From a virus: 62,409 nt of DNA. The stretch spans positions 1-62,409 of IMG/VR virus record IMGVR_UViG_3300042518_001073; one strand, given 5' to 3'. Shown here in pieces: positions 2,610-62,409 of the stretch. Position 1 is the first letter of the stretch, and each line of letters begins with the position of its first letter. The position numbers were made by a program, and so were the translations under genes. The notes below the pieces were generated by a model. It was not told the origin of the DNA. It searched no databases and saw only the letters and a list, made by a program, of their open reading frames with translations.

Positions 2610-4076
2610 TCAATAGTATTCCGGTACAAGCGGCCGTCCCTGACCGGGCATGTCCTGGTAGTCCGTGTTCAACGACACGAAGTTGCCCTGACGGAAGCGC
2701 ATGATCGCCTGCGTCGTCGAGTCGACCATGTCGTCGTTGTCGCCGTTCGGGAATGCAGCGCACTCCTCGACAAGCTCTTCCGCCCAATCGGTGTCCGGGG
2801 CCCAGACCATTCCCGCCTCGAACACAGGGGCTACCGCATGCGCGCGGCTTACCTTGTCGGTGCCGGATCGCCGGCCACCCGGCGTGTACATCGTCACAGG
2901 AATGCCCATGCGACGAAGCTCCTGCTGCAACGTCACACCCGTTGCCTTGGCTTCGATCAGCACGTTGTCGGGATTCCAGCGCTTGTACTCGTCCTTCGCG
3001 ATCCGCTTCAGTTCAGGAAAGTCCCAACGCCCACGCACGACATCAAGCAAAACAATATTCGGCCCCGAGTCCTGGTTCGGATAAAACACACCCCAGGTCG
3101 TGATCACGCTATAGTCAGCGGTCTCCTTCTTGCTGTACGCCGTGTCGTAGCTCTGGATGATGTAGTTCACAATCGGGGGCTGCGGTTCAGGCCAGATCTT
3201 CCACCACTCGCGTTTCAGGATCGCGCCCTCGTCGTTCGTGGGCTGCTGCTGATACATCGCGTTCCACTTCTGCACGGAAAGCGAAGACTTCACGCCCTCC
3301 AACTCCTCGAGCGCCCAGAACTCCGGCCACAACGGTTTGCCAGACGGCAGGATTGCCGGGAACTCGATGACCTCCCACTTATCGGCGTTGTGGCTCGACT
3401 GAGCCTTGAGCAAGCGGGCCGTCAGATCCTTCGTGCCCCAGCGCGTCATGACGATGACGATCGCACCGCCTGGCTGGAGACGGGTTCGCGGACCGCCCTG
3501 ATACCATTCCCACGCGTTGTCCAAAGCCAGATCCGAGTACGCGTCTTGTTCCGAATGCGGGTCGTCGATGATGAGCAGATCCGCACCACGTCCGGTGACC
3601 GCACCGCCCACACCGACCGCGAAGTAGCTACCGCCATGGTTCGTGTCCCAACGGCCGGCAGCCTTGCTGTCCTGCTTAAGATCCACCTTCGGGAAGAGCT
3701 CTCGATAACGATCGGACATCATCAGGTCGCGCACCTTACGGCCGAACTTCACTGCGAGCTCTGCCGTGTGCGTCGCTTCAATCGTCTGCAATCGAGGTTT
3801 GCGCCCCATCAAGAAGGCCGGCAGTAGGTACGACGCGAACTCCGACTTCGTGTGACGAGGCGGCATGTTGATGATCAGCCGCTTCAGTGTTCCCTTGGCG
3901 ATACGATCAAACGCTGCACCCATGCGCCGATGGTGGTCGCCCAGGATCGCCTCGGGCCAGACGTACCGCACGAAGTCGATGAAGTTGTTACGCGCCTTGT
4001 CCTGCGTTTCCAGCAGCATCAGCCGGTATTCCAGCCGCAGCCGCTCTTCCTCAATGTCCTTCGGCACCGCGCTCAT
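2610..4076 (-). CDS. terL: Terminase large subunit
   Basis: This is the DNA-packaging motor: an ATPase that pumps DNA into the prohead and a nuclease that cuts the concatemer. The 488-residue protein shows an ATP-binding motif at 71-79 (MPPRHTKSE), Walker B at about 167-172 (LLIIDD), a coupling motif at 209-213 (VMTRW), and RNase H-fold nuclease acids at D311 (SYDTAY), E375 (IEAKATG) and the DNDDMVD cluster near 447-453. The ATG at 4074-4076 is preferred to an upstream in-frame TTG at 4106. Its partner small subunit lies 4.7 kb away, separated by accessory genes. A parS-like site lies about 95 bp upstream. Confidence 0.96.
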   Translation of the reverse strand: MSAVPKDIEEERLRLEYRLMLLETQDKARNNFIDFVRYVWPEAILGDHHRRMGAAFDRIAKGTLKRLIINMPPRHTKSEFASYLLPAFLMGRKPRLQTIEATHTAELAVKFGRKVRDLMMSDRYRELFPKVDLKQDSKAAGRWDTNHGGSYFAVGVGGAVTGRGADLLIIDDPHSEQDAYSDLALDNAWEWYQGGPRTRLQPGGAIVIVMTRWGTKDLTARLLKAQSSHNADKWEVIEFPAILPSGKPLWPEFWALEELEGVKSSLSVQKWNAMYQQQPTNDEGAILKREWWKIWPEPQPPIVNYIIQSYDTAYSKKETADYSVITTWGVFYPNQDSGPNIVLLDVVRGRWDFPELKRIAKDEYKRWNPDNVLIEAKATGVTLQQELRRMGIPVTMYTPGGRRSGTDKVSRAHAVAPVFEAGMVWAPDTDWAEELVEECAAFPNGDNDDMVDSTTQAIMRFRQGNFVSLNTDYQDMPGQGRPLVPEYY

Positions 4077-4168
4077 GAAAAGTCCGTTGCGTAGAAATTT
4101 GCACAAATTTTTGCACGAGTTGACAAGTTAATCAAAGGGGGTGGTTTTCCTTCCCCCGGGGTCGACGA

Positions 4169-4184
4169 TGTTCCACGTGGAACC
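4169..4184. promoter_or_regulatory. parS-like ParB-binding palindrome
   Basis: TGTTCCACGTGGAACC is a 14-bp perfect palindrome with flanks. It fits the bacterial chromosomal parS consensus TGTTNCACGTGNAACA at 15 of 16 positions and, from memory, equals a Pseudomonas parS variant. No parB gene was recognised in the window, so any binding would be by host ParB. I saw only this one copy. Confidence 0.6.
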
Positions 4185-4374
4185 AAAACCATTTTGCCGC
4201 TCATCCAATGTGTGAAATCGGGCATTAGCCCCCGAAGGCGAACAACCGGCCCGTTTTTTGGACCCGGCCCCCGTAACTCGTTGATCGGCCACGGGAAAAT
4301 TCGCCGCGGCGCGCGGCTCGCGGGCCAATACGTGCTGCCCTTGTAGGAAATAAACACTCAAAGAAATAACCAAA

Positions 4375-4420
4375 CACGGCCCGCGGACCACGGCCACGCG
4401 CCACGGCCCGCGGACCACGG
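4375..4420. repeat. 19-bp direct repeat, 27-bp spacing
   Basis: The sequence cacggcccgcggaccacgg occurs at 4375-4393 and again at 4402-4420 in noncoding GC-rich DNA upstream of terL. A degenerate further relative (gatcacgtaccacgggcacgg) follows. No function can be assigned. Confidence 0.75.
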
Positions 4421-4641
4421 ATCCGGCCGGCCGATCACGTACCACGGGCACGGAATCACAGCTCACGGGCCGCGCATCGCGGCCTAGCTAGTCGACGGGC
4501 CCGGCGGGCGGATCCGGCCGGGCGCTCGAGCTCGAGGGCGGCCGACGGGCACGCCGAAGGGCGGTCGGCTCCCATACCGGCCGACGGGCGGCCGGGCCCG
4601 GGAAAGGGCGCCGAAGCTCGGGAACGGCTCCCAACGGGCGC

Positions 4642-7226: not shown

Positions 7227-7958
7227 TCAAACATCTGCCCAACTAAACGTCCGCCCGAGCCCCTTGATGGTTTTTAGTCCGCGCTCACGCGCGAGCCGTT
7301 CCATCTCGAGAGCTTTGGCGTACAGATCCGGGTGTCGCTCGCGTAACTCGACGATCTCGTCACGCTTCGACGCCGGACAATGAAAGCAGCTCGATTTCGC
7401 CGGGATCGACAATCCGGCCGCGACGATCTCGAGCTTGCATCGATCACGATCCCATCCCCACTCGATCAACGGGAACCGATTTGTGTAACCGTCCGCCGCT
7501 TTGCCCTCCGCCTTAAATCGGCGAACGCTATCGCGAGGGCCGGCGTCGTAACCGACACATTGCGTAACGGTGAGGCCCTGCGCCCATGCGTCACGTGCCG
7601 GCTGCCAGTTCTTCACGAACTTTCGTTGCGGATCGATTTTCCACACGATCGAGCATTGATGCTGCCCGTACGCGAGAGCAGGGAGTACGCGATTGCGCAC
7701 ACAACTCTCCGAAAGGCTCCGATCGTTTGATTTCGGTCGCGGGTTCTTCACGACGGTGACGCGCGGGAATCCAACGCGATCGAGCCATCCGTTGATGACC
7801 TCGAGGTACGCGTAGGTTTCCGGCTTCTCGTCGCCCGTATCAGCGAAGAGAATCAGATCCGGCCGTTCGCCTTGTTGCCACAAGCCGACGAGCATGGCCG
7901 TCGAATCAACGCCCATGCCGTAAGCCACCACTAGCGGGTTTCGTGCAATCGGTTCCAA
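7227..7958 (-). CDS. PAPS reductase-like PP-loop protein
   Basis: The 243-residue protein belongs to the adenine-nucleotide alpha-hydrolase (PP-loop) group that includes PAPS reductase and DndC. It shows a PP-loop at residues 13-20 (YGMGVDST), FADTGDEKPETY, and near the end the cysteine pair SSCFHCPASK. In cells such proteins activate or reduce adenylylated substrates; the phage substrate is unknown. The best start is a TTG at 7956-7958, because AGAAAGGAG is placed 7 nt before it and lies inside the longer frame to 8006. No dnd or sulfur-transfer partner genes are nearby. Confidence 0.82.
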   Translation of the reverse strand: MEPIARNPLVVAYGMGVDSTAMLVGLWQQGERPDLILFADTGDEKPETYAYLEVINGWLDRVGFPRVTVVKNPRPKSNDRSLSESCVRNRVLPALAYGQHQCSIVWKIDPQRKFVKNWQPARDAWAQGLTVTQCVGYDAGPRDSVRRFKAEGKAADGYTNRFPLIEWGWDRDRCKLEIVAAGLSIPAKSSCFHCPASKRDEIVELRERHPDLYAKALEMERLARERGLKTIKGLGRTFSWADV

Positions 7959-8023
7959 TTCCTTTCTCCTTTCTGCGGCCAGAGGCCGAATCGAATCCTC
8001 GTACAACGGGAACGCCCTGTCAA

Positions 8024-8422: not shown

Positions 8423-8845
8423 TCAAGTGTTCATCAACTCGAGCTCGAGCATCGACCACGGCATCGTGCCGTAGTGCCATTCGGCCAGAGCGATCGTGTC
8501 CACGCCGGACTGCGCCAGCTCGAGCACCTGATCCCCGCGGTAGAGCTTGAGCACTCCCTCCTTCGTTGCCTCTTTCCCGTAAGGCACGAACAACACAAGC
8601 ACGTAGGTCGCGCAGCCGATTTCGGCGTGGCGGGAATGGAAGGCGATCTGGTGTGGCGACAGGCGCACCCGGCGCCCGTGCTTGACGACCTTCAGCTCGA
8701 CAGGGACGAACGTGCCCGATCGGGGCAGCGCGATGATGCAGTCGGGGATGCCGAGATTTACCCGCGACTCAATCCGGGTAATAAGGCAGTTTGATAGGTT
8801 TTCCTTCAGCCGCTGGTACAGCTTCGTCTCTGGCTTCGCCGGCAT
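8423..8845 (-). CDS. VRR-NUC-like PD-(D/E)XK endonuclease
   Basis: The 140-residue protein fits small phage VRR-NUC or Holliday-junction-resolvase-like nucleases. Visible elements are E26, the GIPD motif at 32-35, VELK at 49-52 and LSPHQIAFH at 62-70, which give the expected acidic and lysine catalytic set. It may trim branched replication products before packaging. The ATG at 8843-8845 has GGAGG upstream and lies within the 3' end of the terminase small subunit gene (77-nt overlap). Confidence 0.8.
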   Translation of the reverse strand: MPAKPETKLYQRLKENLSNCLITRIESRVNLGIPDCIIALPRSGTFVPVELKVVKHGRRVRLSPHQIAFHSRHAEIGCATYVLVLFVPYGKEATKEGVLKLYRGDQVLELAQSGVDTIALAEWHYGTMPWSMLELELMNT

Positions 8846-9473
8846 CCTCTTCCTCCTCGATGTCTGCTTCGACAGGCGGCTCTTCTTCCTTCGCAAGGCT
8901 CTTCTCCACCTGCTGCGGCGTCACGTCGATGATCGGGCTGCCGTTGCCGTAGAGCTTCTTGATCTCCTCGAGCTTGCGCATGACCTCTTCCTTGCTCATC
9001 GAGTCGATCGTGCCATGTCGAATTTCCTTCCGATCGATGTAGATCGTGCCGAGGGCTTGGCCTCGACGATACTCGGCTTGGACGGCAGCGCCAAAGGCCC
9101 CCGCGGCCAATGCTTGATCACGAATGAGCTGCAAGTCCCTCATGTGCCGCTCGTACGTGGTTGCGTACTTCTCGGCAAGCTCCGCCCGCAGCTTCTGGAT
9201 CTCCGCAACGATGTGCGGGTTGATGTCTGGATCGGTCAGCGTCTCGGCGTAGTACTTCGCCCGCTTCTCGGGATAGCCGGCACGCAGGGCGGCCTCCTTG
9301 GCGGTGACGTGTCCGTCGCCCGCAACGAACTCGTTGACGAACGTCCACTCCTGGGTGGTAAGGATCTGCTTTTTCTTCTTGGTCGCAGGGACAGGCTTGC
9401 TGATCTTGTCGAGCGTGGTTTGGGGAATGCCGCGGCCGATCTGCCTCATCAGCCGATCCGTCGTCTTACTCAC
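8769..9473 (-). CDS. terS: Terminase small subunit
   Basis: This subunit recognises phage DNA and hands it to the large subunit. The 234-residue product shows a terminase-2-type core after residue 35: LTTQEWTFVNEFVAGDGHVT, KEAALRAGYP, then a helical oligomerisation region (IQKLRAELAEKYATTYERHMRDL). It ends in an acidic, flexible tail. The start is GTG at 9471-9473, overlapping the upstream stop (GTGA), with GGAGG 6 nt before. The large subunit is encoded about 4.7 kb downstream rather than adjacent. Confidence 0.88.
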   Translation of the reverse strand: MSKTTDRLMRQIGRGIPQTTLDKISKPVPATKKKKQILTTQEWTFVNEFVAGDGHVTAKEAALRAGYPEKRAKYYAETLTDPDINPHIVAEIQKLRAELAEKYATTYERHMRDLQLIRDQALAAGAFGAAVQAEYRRGQALGTIYIDRKEIRHGTIDSMSKEEVMRKLEEIKKLYGNGSPIIDVTPQQVEKSLAKEEEPPVEADIEEEEDAGEARDEAVPAAEGKPIKLPYYPD

Positions 9474-9685
9474 GCCGTCCTCCAGACTCGCCAACCGCCC
9501 TCGACCTTCCGGCAGGAGAACTTCCACCCGTGCCGCTTGGAGTACATCCACGCTGCCGATCGGACGTTCTTGACCATGGACGGCTCCTCGATGAGGAAGC
9601 TATCGCCGATGTGCATATCCTGAAACGGGTACTTCAGCCGGGCATGGTTCTCGGGCGGTGGTACGTTGGACTCAATTTGCAACAT
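9470..9685 (-). CDS. Small conserved phage protein
   Basis: The 71-residue product has the pattern YPFQDMHIGDSFLIEEPS followed by a basic helix (SAAWMYSKRHGWKF) and the ending RKVEGGWRVWRT, which I know from many small phage proteins of unknown function. It is the first gene of the leftward terS operon, right after the AT-rich control region. Confidence 0.8.
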   Translation of the reverse strand: MLQIESNVPPPENHARLKYPFQDMHIGDSFLIEEPSMVKNVRSAAWMYSKRHGWKFSCRKVEGGWRVWRTA

Positions 9686-9722
9686 ACCGACAGTCTACCG
9701 GGACTCAACTGTCAATGCCAAG

Positions 9723-9762
9723 GCGTTTTACGCACTTTAGTTAAAGAAAAATAGGGTCAATG
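9723..9762 (-). promoter_or_regulatory. Left arm of inverted repeat, promoter-like
   Basis: Reading leftward the arm gives TTGACC, then a 15-nt T-rich spacer, then TAAAGT and GCGTAAAACG. The same order occurs in the right arm on the other strand. TTGACC resembles a -35 box but the 15-nt spacing and -10-like box are poor, so promoter function is inference. It points towards the 9685 gene start. Confidence 0.45.
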
Positions 9763-9824
9763 AAGAAAAAAAATTTCGAAAATTTGTCCGCGCGCGATTT
9801 TTATATCAAATTACACCTACAAAG

Positions 9825-9899
9825 AGACGTAATGAGTACTGTACGAATACAAGTGATTGATTTGAAACACTTCTTACGTCTATTACGTCTATTACGTCA
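9825..9899. repeat. 9-bp iterons (ATTACGTCT)
   Basis: Three head-to-tail units lie at 9873-9881 (cttacgtct), 9882-9890 (attacgtct) and 9891-9899 (attacgtca), with an exact 9-bp period. An inverted copy (agacgtaat) lies at 9825-9833. They sit inside AT-rich DNA, the usual setting of initiator or repressor binding repeats. Confidence 0.7.
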
Positions 9900-9928
9900 T
9901 TTTTGTAAAAAATAAAAAAATAATTTCT

Positions 9929-9967
9929 TGTTGACCCTATTTTTTTCTTACTAAAGGCGTAAAAACG
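9929..9967 (+). promoter_or_regulatory. Right arm of inverted repeat, promoter-like
   Basis: Reading rightward the arm gives TTGACC (9931-9936), a 15-nt spacer, TAAAGG and CGTAAAAACG. It matches the left arm in inverted orientation and points towards the HNH gene at 10131. Function as a promoter or protein-binding site is inferred from symmetry only. Confidence 0.45.
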
Positions 9968-10130
9968 TAATTTTGGCCACGATGCGGTTGTTTTTGGCCC
10001 GTGATCCGTGATTCTTGTCTCATCAAAACCACAGATTTGCTCACGCCCCACGGATCATGCACAATAGTCGCAGCCCTCCGGGAGTCCCATCCCGGAGAGC
10101 CACTTCCCATCAATCGAGGAGATTCGACCG

Positions 10131-10421
10131 ATGAGCAAACCTAATCTTGAGCGTATAGCCGAGTACTTTGAGTACGAACCGGACACCGGCACGCTGATCT
10201 GGCGGAAACGCAAGAAAGGGACTCGGATACAGAGTCGTACTATAGCAGGCTGGACGGATTGGCGCGGGGATAGGTGGGTCACCTTTGAGGGCAAGACCTA
10301 TGCCCAGCACCGCATTGCATGGCTCTTGGGCCATGGCGAATGGCCTCCTTTCCGTATCCTCCATATCAATGGCCATCCCGGGGACAATCGTCTCGACAAT
10401 CTTGCGCCGGGGGACATATAA
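10131..10421 (+). CDS. Short HNH-type endonuclease-like protein
   Basis: The 96-residue product matches the HNH_3 type of phage homing endonucleases: an N-terminal YFEYEPDTGTLIWRKRKKG segment, then GKTYAQHRIAWLLGHGE and HINGHPGDNRLDNL. It stops right after the NL motif, whereas relatives usually continue with a DNA-binding tail, so it may be shortened. GAGGAG lies before the ATG. It is one of few plus-strand genes and sits alone between a control region and the end of a minus-strand operon. Confidence 0.75.
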   Translation: MSKPNLERIAEYFEYEPDTGTLIWRKRKKGTRIQSRTIAGWTDWRGDRWVTFEGKTYAQHRIAWLLGHGEWPPFRILHINGHPGDNRLDNLAPGDI

Positions 10422-10449
10422 AAAACCCCGCCAACTTACGCTGGCGGGG
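10419..10449 (-). terminator. Rho-independent terminator of the replication/accessory operon
   Basis: On the minus strand CCCCGCCA-GCGTAAGT-TGGCGGGG (10426-10449) is followed by TTTTTT. It closes the leftward operon that ends with the gene at 10500 and overlaps the stop codon of the rightward HNH gene. On the plus strand no T-run follows. Confidence 0.9.
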
Positions 10450-10499
10450 TCGTGGCCAATGGCTGGAGTGCTTCAGGACTGGATAGCGGCCACTTAAAC

Positions 10500-10742
10500 C
10501 TATTGGACGTTCGTACCGAGTACGCCCTTGAAGTCTCCTTCTAGCATCCGTGCGGCGGCGTAGGCGGGCATGATCTCACCGAATTCGATGCCTGTGACAT
10601 CGAGGTCTTGGTCCATGATCCCTGGCACGTGGACCACGGGCCCGACGAGCGCGTACCGAGTCCCGTTGATCGTGACGACGATCATCTGGACGAGCGGTTC
10701 GTCGGCGGGGCCGCAGACGCCTGTGACGGTGAGGGTATTCAT
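10500..10742 (-). CDS. Small phage protein, unknown
   Basis: The 80-residue product starts MNTLTVTGVCGPADEPLVQM and looks beta-rich (MIVVTINGTRYALVGPVVHV). The ATG at 10740-10742 overlaps the upstream stop (ATGA), so it is coupled. It is the last gene before the terminator. No family recognised. Confidence 0.7.
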   Translation of the reverse strand: MNTLTVTGVCGPADEPLVQMIVVTINGTRYALVGPVVHVPGIMDQDLDVTGIEFGEIMPAYAAARMLEGDFKGVLGTNVQ

Positions 10743-13688: not shown

Positions 13689-13921
13689 GTTTCTTCCTCT
13701 CTCAATGCTTCAATGATTTCATCTTCGAGCAGCATGCGCTGCGATTCGCTCAATACTTTCAGGACGTTCACGCGCGCCTTCTTGCCGTCCTCTTTCTCAA
13801 GCTCGGCGTAGGCGGCTTTGATCTCGACCATCGCAGGGAGCACAGCGTGCTCCAGTACGATCGGATCGAGGATGTCGAACGAAAGCTCAACGTCCAGGCT
13901 TATCGACGTACGGTGATACAC
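13685..13921 (-). CDS. Small acidic phage protein
   Basis: The 78-residue product begins with GTG at 13919-13921 (VYHRTSISLDVELSF), placed 6 nt after GGAGAA and overlapping the upstream gene by 35 nt. It is helical and acidic, with LSESQRMLLEDEIIEALREE at the end. Longer in-frame starts would run through the upstream gene. Function unknown. Confidence 0.65.
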   Translation of the reverse strand: MYHRTSISLDVELSFDILDPIVLEHAVLPAMVEIKAAYAELEKEDGKKARVNVLKVLSESQRMLLEDEIIEALREEET

Positions 13922-14303
13922 TGTTCTTCTCCCGGTTCTTTTCAATGCGAGCGAGTAGCTCGGCCTGTTTGTAGGCTTCCTCGAACATCGGCTCGACGTG
14001 CTCGCGGATGATCTGCGACATGCTCTTCTTGTAGAACTTCGACAGCTCTTTGAGCTTGAGGTACACGTCCATCGGCACCATGACCGACGAGAACTTCTTG
14101 CCCTTACGCTTGTGCGGGGGCTCCCGGCCTGGATAGCGATAGAGGAAACGCTTCTTGCGGCGACGTTTCTCGAGGCGCGCGGCTCCAAGCCGCGGGAAGG
14201 TGCGGATAAAATCTCTGTCAAACATAAACGTCCATTGTCGACCCTTAGCAGTCGGACGTACCTTTTTCTTCGGCTTCTTTGGAGCGTCTTCAGTCACGCG
14301 CAC
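13887..14303 (-). CDS. Basic protein with ribbon-helix-helix-like segment
   Basis: The roughly 138-residue product is very basic (KRRRKKRFLYRYPGREPPHK). Its second half, SSVMVPMDVYLKLKELSKFY followed by KSMSQIIREHVEPMF, looks like a ribbon-helix-helix DNA-binding unit. The start is one of two GTG codons (14301-14303 or 14295-14297) after AGAAAGGAG. It could be a transcription regulator of the operon; this is inference. Confidence 0.68.
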   Translation of the reverse strand: MRVTEDAPKKPKKKVRPTAKGRQWTFMFDRDFIRTFPRLGAARLEKRRRKKRFLYRYPGREPPHKRKGKKFSSVMVPMDVYLKLKELSKFYKKSMSQIIREHVEPMFEEAYKQAELLARIEKNREKNSVSPYVDKPGR

Positions 14304-14354
14304 GTTTCTCCTTTCTTGAACGCTGAATGTACCGTACCAGAATCTTCGCCGCAA

Positions 14355-23517: not shown

Positions 23518-24230
23518 TTGACCTAATCCCGATCAGAAAGCTTTACAAGTACGAAAGACTCGAGCGGATCGACGCCCCAGAAGGCCGGCGATACCTGGAC
23601 GGTAATGCGGTCGCGTTGCCAAGCGTGACCACGATCCTGTCTGGCACGAAGGATAAGTCTGGCCTTGAGGCGTGGGCCGCGAAGGTTGGTGAGGCCGAAG
23701 CGAACCGGATCCGTAACGAAGCGGCTGCGGTCGGCACTCATATGCACAACGTCATCGAGCGTATGGTGGCGTACAGAGACCTTCCGCGACCGACGAACTG
23801 GCTCATGATCAAGGGCTACGAGATGGGCTATCGGCTCGTGAACGAGTACTTTCGGAACCTGGATGAGATCTGGGGCTCCGAAGTAAGTCTGCACTACCCC
23901 GGAAAGTACGCGGGAACGACGGATCTTGTCGGCGTGTACCGCGGCAATCCCTCGATCATCGACTTCAAGCAGTCGCTAAAGCCGAAGAAGCACGAGTGGA
24001 TCCAGGACTACTTCCACCAGCTTGCCGCGTACGCGCTGGCGCACGATGTGGTGCATGGCACCACAATCAAACACGGTTACGTGCTGATTGCGCTGCAATC
24101 AGGCGGCACTCAGGAGTTCAGTACGACAGGCTCCGAGTTCGATCGCTACAAGGACGAATGGCTGAAGCGCGTCGAGGCGTTTAGCCAGGCATCGGCGGCG
24201 TCCCCGCCTGAACCGCAGCCGCTCCCATAA
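23514..24230 (+). CDS. PD-(D/E)XK exonuclease (RecB/Cas4-like)
   Basis: The 238-residue protein has the motif order of this nuclease fold: GTHMHNVIERM near residue 75, GKYAGTTDLVGVYRG with the catalytic Asp near 136-150, SIIDFKQS as the D-x-K strand, and the QDYFHQLAAYALA helix with Gln and Tyr. It would serve recombination or DNA-end processing with the SNF2-type helicase. Start is GTG at 23514-23516, overlapping the upstream TGA, after AAGGAG. Its 3' end overlaps the convergent late gene by 50 bp. Confidence 0.88.
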   Translation: MIDLIPIRKLYKYERLERIDAPEGRRYLDGNAVALPSVTTILSGTKDKSGLEAWAAKVGEAEANRIRNEAAAVGTHMHNVIERMVAYRDLPRPTNWLMIKGYEMGYRLVNEYFRNLDEIWGSEVSLHYPGKYAGTTDLVGVYRGNPSIIDFKQSLKPKKHEWIQDYFHQLAAYALAHDVVHGTTIKHGYVLIALQSGGTQEFSTTGSEFDRYKDEWLKRVEAFSQASAASPPEPQPLP

Positions 24231-39126: not shown

Positions 39127-39338
39127 CGTAGCGTTGCTCCTGCTGCTGCCGGCACGGTCGTCACCTGGATCGACACGTGTTGTCGAAGATTCAACACTTG
39201 CCCACAGTCCGAGCAGGTGTCGGCCTCCAGTTCGGCCTCGTCCAGATCGTATCCGCAGGCCGCGCAAAGGACTTCGATCGCATGAGCGGGTTCGATCACC
39301 CCGAGATCCGTGGTCCGTGGTTCGTGACTCACTCTCAT
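39123..39338 (-). CDS. Small zinc-ribbon protein
   Basis: The 71-residue product has two knuckles, LCAACGYDLDE and DTCSDCGQ, typical of a zinc ribbon. GGAGGAGG lies before the ATG at 39336-39338, which overlaps the endolysin stop. A CCGTGGTCCGTGG tandem in its 5' part is coding. Confidence 0.75.
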   Translation of the reverse strand: MRVSHEPRTTDLGVIEPAHAIEVLCAACGYDLDEAELEADTCSDCGQVLNLRQHVSIQVTTVPAAAGATLR

Positions 39339-59002: not shown

Positions 59003-62000
59003 TAACGCTTCTTCCGCTTTACCGCCCCGCCCCTGGCGTATCCCGTACGCTCTTCCTTCGGCAGGATCTTCGCCTTGTTCTTCTCGACATACTCGCGCGC
59101 CAGACGCACGACATCCTGCTCATCCTTCGCACGCTGACCAATCTCCCGCCCAAGCGCATCGTTAAAACGATCCATTTCACGCTCGGCTTCCGTCTGCCCC
59201 GGCGAGCCCAGCCGCGACTCGTACGCCATGCTCACAAGGTCAGCAATCGTCGGATTCGTCTTGCGCGTTAGATCAGCCTGATACATCAAGTGCCGCATCG
59301 CATCCGCTTTGCCGCCACCTGACTCCTTCACACCAAACGCCGCGACCGACTCGCGCTCTGCACGGGCAGGAATGTCCGCAACGCCGAGCAACTCCGCCGC
59401 GCCACGCTTCAATTTCCGCGTGCCACGGCCCGCGTACTCCACAAGCTCGTCCAACTTCTCTCGCGCCGAGCTCTTCGCCTCGCCGCCTTCGTTAAACCGC
59501 TTCGCCAGCAGCTCGCCTTCGCGCGCAAGACTCGCCTGCGAAAACGTCGGCATGCCGAGCGTCTCACGGATTAACTCCATCTTCTGCCGCGACTCCTCGG
59601 TCTGGCGCTTGGTCCGTGGGCCTTGGGTCTTGGTGACCTCTTCAAACTCCATGGCCATGCCACGCGCACTACCGCGATCCGTCTCTTGACGAATCGGACG
59701 ACGCGACGTGCGACGGACGCTCTGTGAGGTGGGCGACAAACTGACTTCGGTCTTCGAGGACGCCGGCTGACTCATGAGCTGATCCAGCATCGAACGCGCC
59801 GAGTCGATGTCGCGATAGCCCTCGGCTTCGGTCTGCTCCTGCAACAACTGCAAGAGCTCCGCGTCGCTCGCAGGGCCGCCCTTCTTTCGTCCACCAGGCT
59901 TCACGGCTCCCGGCGAAAGGATCACGTTGCCGAAACGGTCCGTGTAGTACCCGGCGTTCTCAGCGCCGCCCAGCATGGTTGGGCCAAGGTTCGGATTCTG
60001 CCCAAGCGCCTGCAACGGGATGTTGCTCGTCAGGAGACTCGTCGGCGTCTGGCCCGTGGGGATCGTGCCCGGAGTCAAGCCGCCCGTGTTGGGATTGAAG
60101 AACGGCGTGCCGGTGCCCGCGCCAGGCATCGTCGGCAACGGAGCGGCCTGATATCCCGGAATGGGAATAGGCGTCGGCGTGTAGAACCCGCCACCGCCGC
60201 CCGGCGAAGTGACAGGAGGACTCGTAACAGGAGGCGCGCCGCCACCAGGAGGCATCACGGGCCCCGGACCGGGGCGCGCGGGCAGACCGCCGCCTGTCGG
60301 CGGTAACTCGGGGGTTTTTCCACTACCCGGCTCACGGGGGCGCGGTACATTTCCACCGCCCCTACCTACGCCACGGCCGATACGGTTGAGCAAACGGCCG
60401 ATGTCGGTATCGTCGCCGAAGAAGCCGTAGTTAAACCCAGGACGTGGACGAGCAGGGCCACCAGCCATAGGAATGTCACGTACGGGAGGCTCATCCTTCG
60501 TCGGTGGTTTTCCACCGCCCGTCGGGACTTCATCACGATCGTCAATGCCGTTTAGGTTGCGATCGATGAAGTCCCCTGTTCGCACATTACCGCCGCCCGG
60601 TACGGTGCCGCCAGTCGTCGGGGGAGGTTGAATGCCGCCACCGCCAGAAGGCGGAGGCTGTGCAGGAGGCGGCGTTGTCGGAAGAGGGCTGTCGATCAGA
60701 CCAGGAGGCCTTGCAACGCCGTCGCCACCGGGGCCACCGGCACCTGGGGCGCCAGTCCCTGGGCCGCCCGGAGTACCACCACCACGGTTCTTCTCTTCCT
60801 CCCTGCGACGGGCTTCCTCCTCGGCTCTACGGCGAGCCTCATCCTCCGCCGCCTTACGCGCGGCCTCGTCTGCAAGACGACGCTTCTCCGCCTCTTCGGC
60901 TACTCGACGGGCTTCTTCAGCCGCTCGACGAGCTGCTGCATCTTGTTCTTCACGTCGGCGAGCTTCTTCTGCACGACGAGCTGCTTCCTCTTCAGCAGCT
61001 CTACGAGCGGCTTCTTGTTCGGCAGCTTTGCGAGCAGCCTCTTCAGCGGATTTACGAGCGGCTTCTTCTTCAGCGGCTCTTTTGGCGGCTTCCTCAGCCG
61101 CACGACGATTGGCTTCTTCTTCAGCGGCACGACGGGCCGCCTCTTCTTCTGCCCTACGGGCGGCTTCTTGTGCGGCACGGCGTTCGATCTCCTCTTGAGC
61201 AATTCTCTTTGCCTGGTCGCCATAAGGCTTCCAAACATTCGTGATGTCAGGACGGTTGGCAAGATCCTCTTTACTGCGCAACCGCTTCAAATCCTCCGCC
61301 GCGGTGCCGCCAGTGGTAATCGTCTCGCTCTCTTCCGTGCGAGGGGCACGATCACGAGCTTCTTGTTCACGAATAAGAGCTGCTGTTCGCTCGCGTTCCT
61401 GCTGGCGAACGATCTCCGCCGCACGCTCGGCTGCGGCTTGTTCCTGTGCAACACGAGCGGCTTCCTGACGCGCGGCTTCTTGCCTTGCAGCTTCTTGTGC
61501 CGCGGCGGCCTGGGCAGCTTCTTCTTGTGCGCGACGGGCGGCGGCTGCTTCAGCAAGTCTGCGCTGCTCCTCGGCACGACGGGCTTCTTCGTCGCGGCGA
61601 GTGCGGACAGCATCTTCCCGTGCGACCGTCTCTTGCGCACGAGTGCGGGGCGTCGTTGCAGGCTGGGCCTGTTGACGCGGAGCTTGTTGACGGGGAGCTT
61701 GTTGCGCGGCGCGTGCTGCGGCAGCGGCTTGCTCTGCCTGCTGACGTGCAGCCGCCTCTTGCGCTGCACGTTCGGCTTGTTGTCGTGCAGCCGCTTCCTG
61801 CGCCGCACGCTCTGCCTGCTGACGCGCGGCCGCTTGTGCCGCTTGCTGACGGGCCGCTTCCTGCGCGGCTTGTTGTCTCGCGGCCTCTTGTGCTGCACGC
61901 TCTTCCGCTGCACGCATGGCCGCCATGTCCTGCGCAGCGCTGCCAGGACGAGCGACAGGCTCTTCCCGTTGTATGGGGCGAGTGACTGTCGTAGGGCGCA

Positions 62001-62409
62001 TCGTCTCCGCGGACGACGGGCCGGGACGAATGGATAGCGGGGACGGCGTTGGTTCCGCGACAGGTTGTGCCGCTGGCGGCGGAGCCGCAGCTTGCGGAGG
62101 CGGAGCAGTGGGCGCACCGAACAACGGCTGCGTCGCCGCAGGGGCGGAGAACGTCGGGGTCGGCTCAACAACAGGTTGTGCCGCTTGGTTGAGTTGGTTG
62201 AACTCCTCCAGTGCCGTCTCTGCCGCACGCGAGACACCCGGCTCGCGCGCAAACCGCGACGCTGCCTTGTATTCCTTCAGCTTGGTCTTCGGGTTCTTGG
62301 TCCCCGCGCCGCCGAGCTTCTTCAACAGATCACGGGCCGTGGAGCTTAAGTACGCAAGCTCGGTATCGCCGCCACGGCCAGCCGAGGCAACCTTCTTGAT
62401 AAACGCTGC
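59002..62409 (-). CDS. Long Ala/Glu-rich, Pro/Gly-rich virion-type protein (right allele, 5' end cut by window edge)
   Basis: 1,135 codons of the same gene as at 1-2566, missing about 16 N-terminal codons. Order: short conserved domain (GAGTKNPKTKLKEYKAASRF), Ala/Glu/Arg/Gln helical stretch with EEAARRAAEEEA-type repeats, Pro/Gly-rich part with an EF-hand-like loop DRNLNGIDDRDE (60529-60573), conserved linker (YTPTPIPIPGYQAAPLPTMP), and a C-terminal domain with GKADAMRHLMYQADL and MDRFNDALGREIGQ, resembling domains seen at toxin ends. It may be carried in the virion and injected. Confidence 0.82.
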   Translation of the reverse strand, partial: AAFIKKVASAGRGGDTELAYLSSTARDLLKKLGGAGTKNPKTKLKEYKAASRFAREPGVSRAAETALEEFNQLNQAAQPVVEPTPTFSAPAATQPLFGAPTAPPPQAAAPPPAAQPVAEPTPSPLSIRPGPSSAETMRPTTVTRPIQREEPVARPGSAAQDMAAMRAAEERAAQEAARQQAAQEAARQQAAQAAARQQAERAAQEAAARQQAERAAQEAAARQQAEQAAAAARAAQQAPRQQAPRQQAQPATTPRTRAQETVAREDAVRTRRDEEARRAEEQRRLAEAAAARRAQEEAAQAAAAQEAARQEAARQEAARVAQEQAAAERAAEIVRQQERERTAALIREQEARDRAPRTEESETITTGGTAAEDLKRLRSKEDLANRPDITNVWKPYGDQAKRIAQEEIERRAAQEAARRAEEEAARRAAEEEANRRAAEEAAKRAAEEEAARKSAEEAARKAAEQEAARRAAEEEAARRAEEARRREEQDAAARRAAEEARRVAEEAEKRRLADEAARKAAEDEARRRAEEEARRREEEKNRGGGTPGGPGTGAPGAGGPGGDGVARPPGLIDSPLPTTPPPAQPPPSGGGGIQPPPTTGGTVPGGGNVRTGDFIDRNLNGIDDRDEVPTGGGKPPTKDEPPVRDIPMAGGPARPRPGFNYGFFGDDTDIGRLLNRIGRGVGRGGGNVPRPREPGSGKTPELPPTGGGLPARPGPGPVMPPGGGAPPVTSPPVTSPGGGGGFYTPTPIPIPGYQAAPLPTMPGAGTGTPFFNPNTGGLTPGTIPTGQTPTSLLTSNIPLQALGQNPNLGPTMLGGAENAGYYTDRFGNVILSPGAVKPGGRKKGGPASDAELLQLLQEQTEAEGYRDIDSARSMLDQLMSQPASSKTEVSLSPTSQSVRRTSRRPIRQETDRGSARGMAMEFEEVTKTQGPRTKRQTEESRQKMELIRETLGMPTFSQASLAREGELLAKRFNEGGEAKSSAREKLDELVEYAGRGTRKLKRGAAELLGVADIPARAERESVAAFGVKESGGGKADAMRHLMYQADLTRKTNPTIADLVSMAYESRLGSPGQTEAEREMDRFNDALGREIGQRAKDEQDVVRLAREYVEKNKAKILPKEERTGYARGGAVKRKKR
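59784..62409. repeat. Right copy of diverged terminal repeat
   Basis: Counterpart of 1-2518, 2626 bp long. The region 61186-61316 is unlike the left copy (1345-1560), while flanks agree. The match stops at the window edge, so the true extent is unknown. Confidence 0.9.

Follow-up and report, generated by a model that had tools for sequence, protein, structure and literature searches.

The pSC101 and R6K gamma origins are single-copy cis-acting sites in which short tandem direct repeats, with units of about 21-22 bp, are combined with an AT-rich segment and an IHF site by the iterons. In lambda, cosB consists of repeated terminase sites and an IHF site, with the repeats placed around the IHF bend and the small terminase gene lying downstream. 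Phage homing endonucleases such as I-HmuI and I-HmuII of SPO1 and SP82 exclude the allele of a competitor. HEG islands of phages have been described (PMC10448857), and ICP1 encodes Odn, an origin-directed nuclease of homing-endonuclease descent that cuts the origin of its satellite (PMC10448857). For the widespread freshwater phage group studied here, targeted text searches found no published origin.

The region analysed here lies in a virus record of 62,409 bp, the whole of which is called the window, and is best explained as a single-copy cis-acting nucleoprotein site. With the pSC101 and R6K gamma origins it shares the short tandem direct repeats, the AT-rich segment, the IHF site beside the iterons and the single copy, but its units are shorter (8-9 bp), its arms are symmetric and point outward, its context is a phage, and no adjoining Rep gene was identified. 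Like lambda cosB, it lies upstream of the small terminase gene and has its repeats around a putative IHF bend; unlike cosB, its arms swap freely with TerS unchanged, and there is no sign of a fixed DNA end. As with phage homing endonucleases, an HNH gene is co-inherited with flanking DNA, with sharp boundaries between near-identical phages, whereas what is linked here is neither a gene nor an intron but non-coding DNA that resembles an origin, and one clade of the proteins has lost catalytic residues. ICP1 Odn is likewise a homing-nuclease-derived protein tied to a replication origin; here, in contrast, the gene for the protein adjoins a candidate origin belonging to the phage itself, and the protein often looks nuclease-dead from its sequence. 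The best reading of the region, to which we give a probability of about 0.55, is that it is the replication origin of the phage, IHF-bent and iteron-bearing.

Genome setting and layout of the region

The window encodes a terminase, a DNA polymerase A, a UvrD-like helicase and an AEP-type primase, which place it with Phage DSL-LC04, and its TerL is 77% identical to that of DSL-LC04. By these genes it is a phage of about 60 kb and kin of DSL-LC04, for which the family name 'Dishuiviridae' has been proposed (PMC10611076); HTVC023P-type pelagiphages are more distant kin. The genome has a G+C content of about 58%. The ends of the record (1-2518 and about 59784-62409) overlap in diverged homologous, repeat-rich sequence with 80-90% identity over the longest pieces, from which we read the record as an assembly that spans two strain variants of a circular genome of about 59.8 kb. 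The arms and the core occupy a 445-bp gap between a rightward HNH_3 gene and a leftward operon that opens with a 71-aa ORF and the small terminase gene. The features are as follows:

8769-9551, minus strand: terminase small subunit (TerS), conserved neighbour (Pfam Terminase_2 below cut-off; PHROG 51)
9470-9685, minus strand: 71-aa ORF, first gene of the leftward operon
9692-9721, minus strand: predicted sigma-70-like promoter TTGGCA-18-TAGACT upstream of the leftward operon
9724-9768, minus strand: left arm, outward element TTGACCCTATTTTTCTTTAACTAAAGTGCGTAAAA in minus-strand reading (shuffles; matched arms in relatives)
9789-9796, no strand: conserved alternating CGCGCGCG block
9810-9817, minus strand: conserved related unit GGTGTAAT, adjoining ATATAAAA and CGCGCGCG
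9825-9833, plus strand: inverted iteron, an exact copy (ATTACGTCT on the minus strand)
9850-9862, minus strand: IHF-consensus site AATCAATCACTTG (consensus WATCAANNNNTTR), the most conserved element of the core
9873-9899, minus strand: three tandem 9-bp iterons (GACGTAAT units), namely CTTACGTCT (9873-9881), ATTACGTCT (9882-9890) and ATTACGTCA (9891-9899)
9924-9967, plus strand: right arm, outward element TTGACCCTATTTTTTTCTTACTAAAGGCGTAAAA (shuffles; matched arms in relatives)
10131-10421, plus strand: HNH_3 endonuclease gene with intact catalytic motif, in the exchangeable cassette (domain and motif)
10424-10451, minus strand: predicted intrinsic terminator of the incoming replication-gene operon

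An earlier note on this DNA had described two outward arms of about 40 bp enclosing AT-rich DNA with three tandem 9-bp units and one inverted unit, and each of these elements was recovered. Aligned with two small gaps, the arms span 41-45 nt; without gaps they match over 37 nt at 78%. They point outward with a spacing of about 155-170 bp. Their gapped local score was 29, above all 1000 dinucleotide-preserving shuffles of the same 271 bp (maximum 19, mean 12), and each arm contains one exact copy of the 14-mer TTGACCCTATTTTT, the only two in the record. Among the tandem iterons, one is exact and two carry one mismatch each; the GGTGTAAT unit at 9810-9817 is an addition to the earlier list. The A+T content across the region is about 60-88% in 40-bp windows.

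Conserved core and variable arms

We inspected 80 TerS loci upstream of TerS and aligned 40 dereplicated loci; GenBank phages excepted, these relatives are metagenomic contigs. A non-coding stretch of about 250 bases including both arms occurs once per genome, and the arms and core lie upstream of the small-terminase gene in 13 of 13 complete relatives. The 40-locus alignment gave a shared core of about 115 bp made up of three GTAAT-type iterons, ATCAATnnGTTA, an ATTAC unit in inverted orientation, GGTGTAATT, in many loci TATAAAA, and CGCGCGCG, bordered by A/T tracts and by both arms. A coding reading, with ORFs of 51 and 81 aa running across the region, was rejected because the core alignment has indels of 1-2 bases. 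In each of 11 genomes, DSL-LC04 among them, the core HMM matched a single place, and the core motif was single-copy in all 3 further genomes. G009 gave an additional weak match to the core profile on the opposite strand (E=0.023), inside the same core, and G010 and G012 gave similar internal matches. A motif scan added 92 new loci, 86 of them with the full core; the other six are near chance expectation by our own estimate. TerS lay on the same strand, 164-693 bp from the core, in all 78 testable contigs, and the orientation was constant. No related element was found in pelagiphage HTVC027P or phage 023Pt_psg01. Two loci with the iteron and IHF motif but without the full core were called suggestive and left out of the evidence: L249:5844-5874, beside a VapE-like primase-helicase gene, and L279:2956-2985, adjoined by two DnaA-box-like sequences and an Sf6-type small terminase.

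A WATCAANNNNTTR-type site occupies a fixed place in the core, between the iterons. The exact IHF consensus was present in 16 of 39 loci versus 0 of 39 in shuffles, and with at most one mismatch in 33 of 39 versus 8 of 39; from this motif we infer that IHF binds at the centre of the core. Clustering the cores of about 120 loci set apart a type B of 25 loci; the core types had first been recognised by eye and were then recovered by clustering.

The arms vary from phage to phage. In 43 of 55 dereplicated loci, with related loci counted as separate, left and right arm are matched within the genome (p<=0.01), and the matched word differs by genome, being TTGACCCTATTTTT in the window, TAGACCCCTCTGAGGTTCTACTA in L100 and AGAGAGTGTATC...TATAGGAA in DSL-LC04. 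A loose outer consensus, TCTAnnnAAA, is shared, and the outer boxes are 193-199 bp apart in most type-A loci with both ends located. No third arm copy was found in the 11 genomes scanned, and an arm-word pattern search of viral contigs gave no matches because the arm sequence is genome-specific. Such arms could be read by something variable, could need only to match each other, or could be kept alike by gene conversion. In L228 the arms, which lie between about 140 bp to the left of the core and 100 bp to its right, form a near-identical 53-nt pair, as if one arm had recently been converted or duplicated from the other. In one subgroup (L222, L289, L224), the outer arm ends carry CTCTATAGGGA or a close variant and look similar to a T7-type transcription start.

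Exchange of the block and the neighbouring HNH proteins

Most of the sequence common to contigs G014 and G010 is about 94-98% identical, with one differing block (G014 3650-4406 versus G010 23580-24153) that comprises the HNH gene, the core and the arms; smaller differences lie elsewhere, e.g. at G014 1-2263 and 7478-7979. In relatives such as these, the swapped block starts just beyond the upstream terminator that ends the incoming replication-gene operon. The same island was seen in L100/L101 and L104/L102 (same lineages), L112/L141 and L145/L146, and less sharply in L113/L125, spanning about -750 to -150 bp from TerS and reaching about -1050 in L112/L141. Flanks of the swapping phages are 94-100% identical, and the HNH gene often travels with the block. 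These alignments show near-identical phages swapping the block as a cassette. L101 and L141 have HNH genes 98% identical and core plus arms 93% identical, on backbones whose TerS are 90% identical. Across 20 loci, HNH similarity followed that of the core and arms after removal of TerS similarity (partial r=0.71, permutation p=0.0005). In our reading, HNH endonucleases would settle beside the site and bring about its replacement in mixed infections.

Conversely, TerS is 98-100% identical in L100/L101, L112/L141 and L145/L146 while core and arms are only 39-41% identical, and this argues against TerS reading the arms. Since both core types work on near-identical backbones, the shared iterons and IHF site are likely the targets of common machinery. 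With a 250-bp candidate and natural swaps on near-identical backbones, origin function becomes directly testable.

The HNH gene of the window (10131-10421) has an HNH_3 domain with catalytic His and Asn present, and a search with this protein found no close relative. In type B, an HNH-like protein of one clade was present in 24 of 24 loci with a visible neighbouring gene, many of them near-duplicates (13 distinct proteins). The remaining loci comprised at least 64 without HNH, 19 with an intact-motif HNH and one sequence type (3 contigs) with a B-like protein. In the B clade HNH_3 is still recognised, weakly; the catalytic His is changed to F, Y or R in most members and DNR to DIR or NIR, with Ile in place of the Asn of DNR. 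The median pairwise dN/dS of about 0.28 points to purifying selection, and by sequence the proteins look like DNA-binding remnants maintained by selection. In the type-B lineage, the catalytically degenerate protein would have become a fixed partner of the site. We put forward only tentatively, as something we doubt more than we believe, that the HNH family has been domesticated to serve as a partner of the origin, with the nuclease-dead type-B protein obligate for a distinct origin type and binding its arms. Origin and protein would then pass between phages as an identity cassette and, when two near-identical phages infect the same cell, settle which one replicates. If true, the type-B pairing would show a selfish nuclease turning into a replication partner; the same pairing suggests competition among phages through their origins.

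Candidate replication origin and alternative functions

The origin reading draws on the layout and on strand composition. Tandem short repeats lie inside an AT-rich non-coding segment, as in iteron-type origins. In the window genome, the minimum of the detrended cumulative GC skew is 283 bp from the core centre, close to the 9.85 kb at which a skew change had been suggested as a check, and the family-mean profile is also lowest at the core (KS p=3e-4, genomes treated as independent). In 5 of the 14 genomes the minimum falls no more than 350 bp from the core, and in 13 no more than 8 kb. These genomes have few 16-mers in common (7% or less, with G004/G005 the exception at 25%); their common gene content leaves them non-independent. 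Genes flanking the core are mostly on the same strand on both sides. Computed from TerS-strand genes only, the skew has the expected sign in 12 of 14 genomes (p=0.001). Third codon positions alone, the strictest control, gave 9 of 14 (p=0.08), which is only suggestive. G006 and G008 lack the skew. We regard the skew as moderate support for an origin, not proof. The initiator-bound origin of the earlier note is partly supported: the conservation, the iteron and IHF layout and the skew in this genome, in the family mean and on the TerS strand fit it, and the third positions are weak.

Against an origin we count that no initiator gene was identified and no DnaA boxes were noted, and that the constant TerS neighbourhood is equally expected of a packaging or regulatory site. 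If the region is an origin, an initiator, phage-encoded or host, would bind the iterons, IHF, bending the centre by about 160 degrees, would draw the arms next to each other, and the strands would open either in the inner AT-rich segments or at the outer, TATA-like ends, so that two forks could depart in opposite directions.

Transcriptional control is the alternative that survives best, although we hold it to be unlikely. The iterons would be operators of a phage regulator, and IHF would aid a promoter that turns on the leftward 71-aa/TerS operon and also the rightward HNH gene in genomes that have it. The site does divide two transcription units, a terminator ends the incoming operon, the sigma-70-like promoter just outside the left arm has a -10-like box kept in relatives, and relatives depend on host RNAP (HTVC027P, PMC12753301). 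However, a single promoter needs no mirror symmetry over about 200 bp, the arms match each other and no other site in the genomes scanned, and the skew minimum is left unexplained. The narrower proposal that the arms are matched promoters for left and right genes is not supported: no sigma-70-like promoter was found within them, the sole candidate sits beyond the left arm, immediately before the leftward gene, the arms have no copies elsewhere in 11 genomes, and both are kept in L087, L091, L098 and L142, where no convincing divergent gene follows the right arm. A T7-like promoter pair also appears unlikely: the genomes scanned have no extra arm copies, and no single-subunit RNA polymerase was found by PF00940, a search whose control was silent in every genome. 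HTVC027P is stated in a study of it to encode no RNAP (PMC12753301). The -10-like box of the leftward operon lies about 6 bp ahead of the ATG of the 71-aa ORF (9685-9721), which suggests a leaderless transcript or one with a very short leader.

Packaging initiation, with TerS and IHF assembling on a pac or cosB-like core beside terS, is somewhat more improbable again. Its position and orientation upstream of TerS are invariant, and lambda cosB also pairs repeated terminase sites with an IHF site. Nevertheless, the near-identical TerS over diverged arms speaks against TerS reading the arms (the iterons common to both core types are possible TerS targets), and a pac site predicts no skew change. 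Contig ends are not enriched at the core, and a cos-type end was rejected on this ground.

We give very little credence to a selfish homing-endonuclease cassette in which core and arms serve chiefly as control and target DNA belonging to the HNH gene. The TerS-independent HNH-core correlation and the sharp en bloc exchange would fit it, but the core is universal and HNH is not: in 46 of 69 further contigs, scored with a home-made profile, HNH is missing and the core is retained, mostly together with matched arms. Because cores persist without HNH or any convincing divergent gene, the structure does not exist for the HNH gene. A structured non-coding RNA, an invertible element or an attachment site, suggested by long complementary arms flanking a conserved core, is similarly far-fetched, as RNAalifold finds no consensus structure on either strand and Rfam no match, the core never changes orientation (78/78), no integrase is seen in the DSL-LC04 annotation, and the strict core pattern is absent from 84,980 bacterial and archaeal genomes.

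Two further observations concern the surroundings of the candidate origin. The small protein encoded at positions 13887-14354 has no Pfam match, but judged by eye its C-terminal stretch resembles a ribbon-helix-helix, which makes it a possible candidate for binding the iterons. GGATCAC/GGACCAC-type repeats with a 7-bp period lie at 9996-10013, and also at 4385-4423, 10610-10642 and 39305-39316; those just beyond the right arm are conserved in most relatives.
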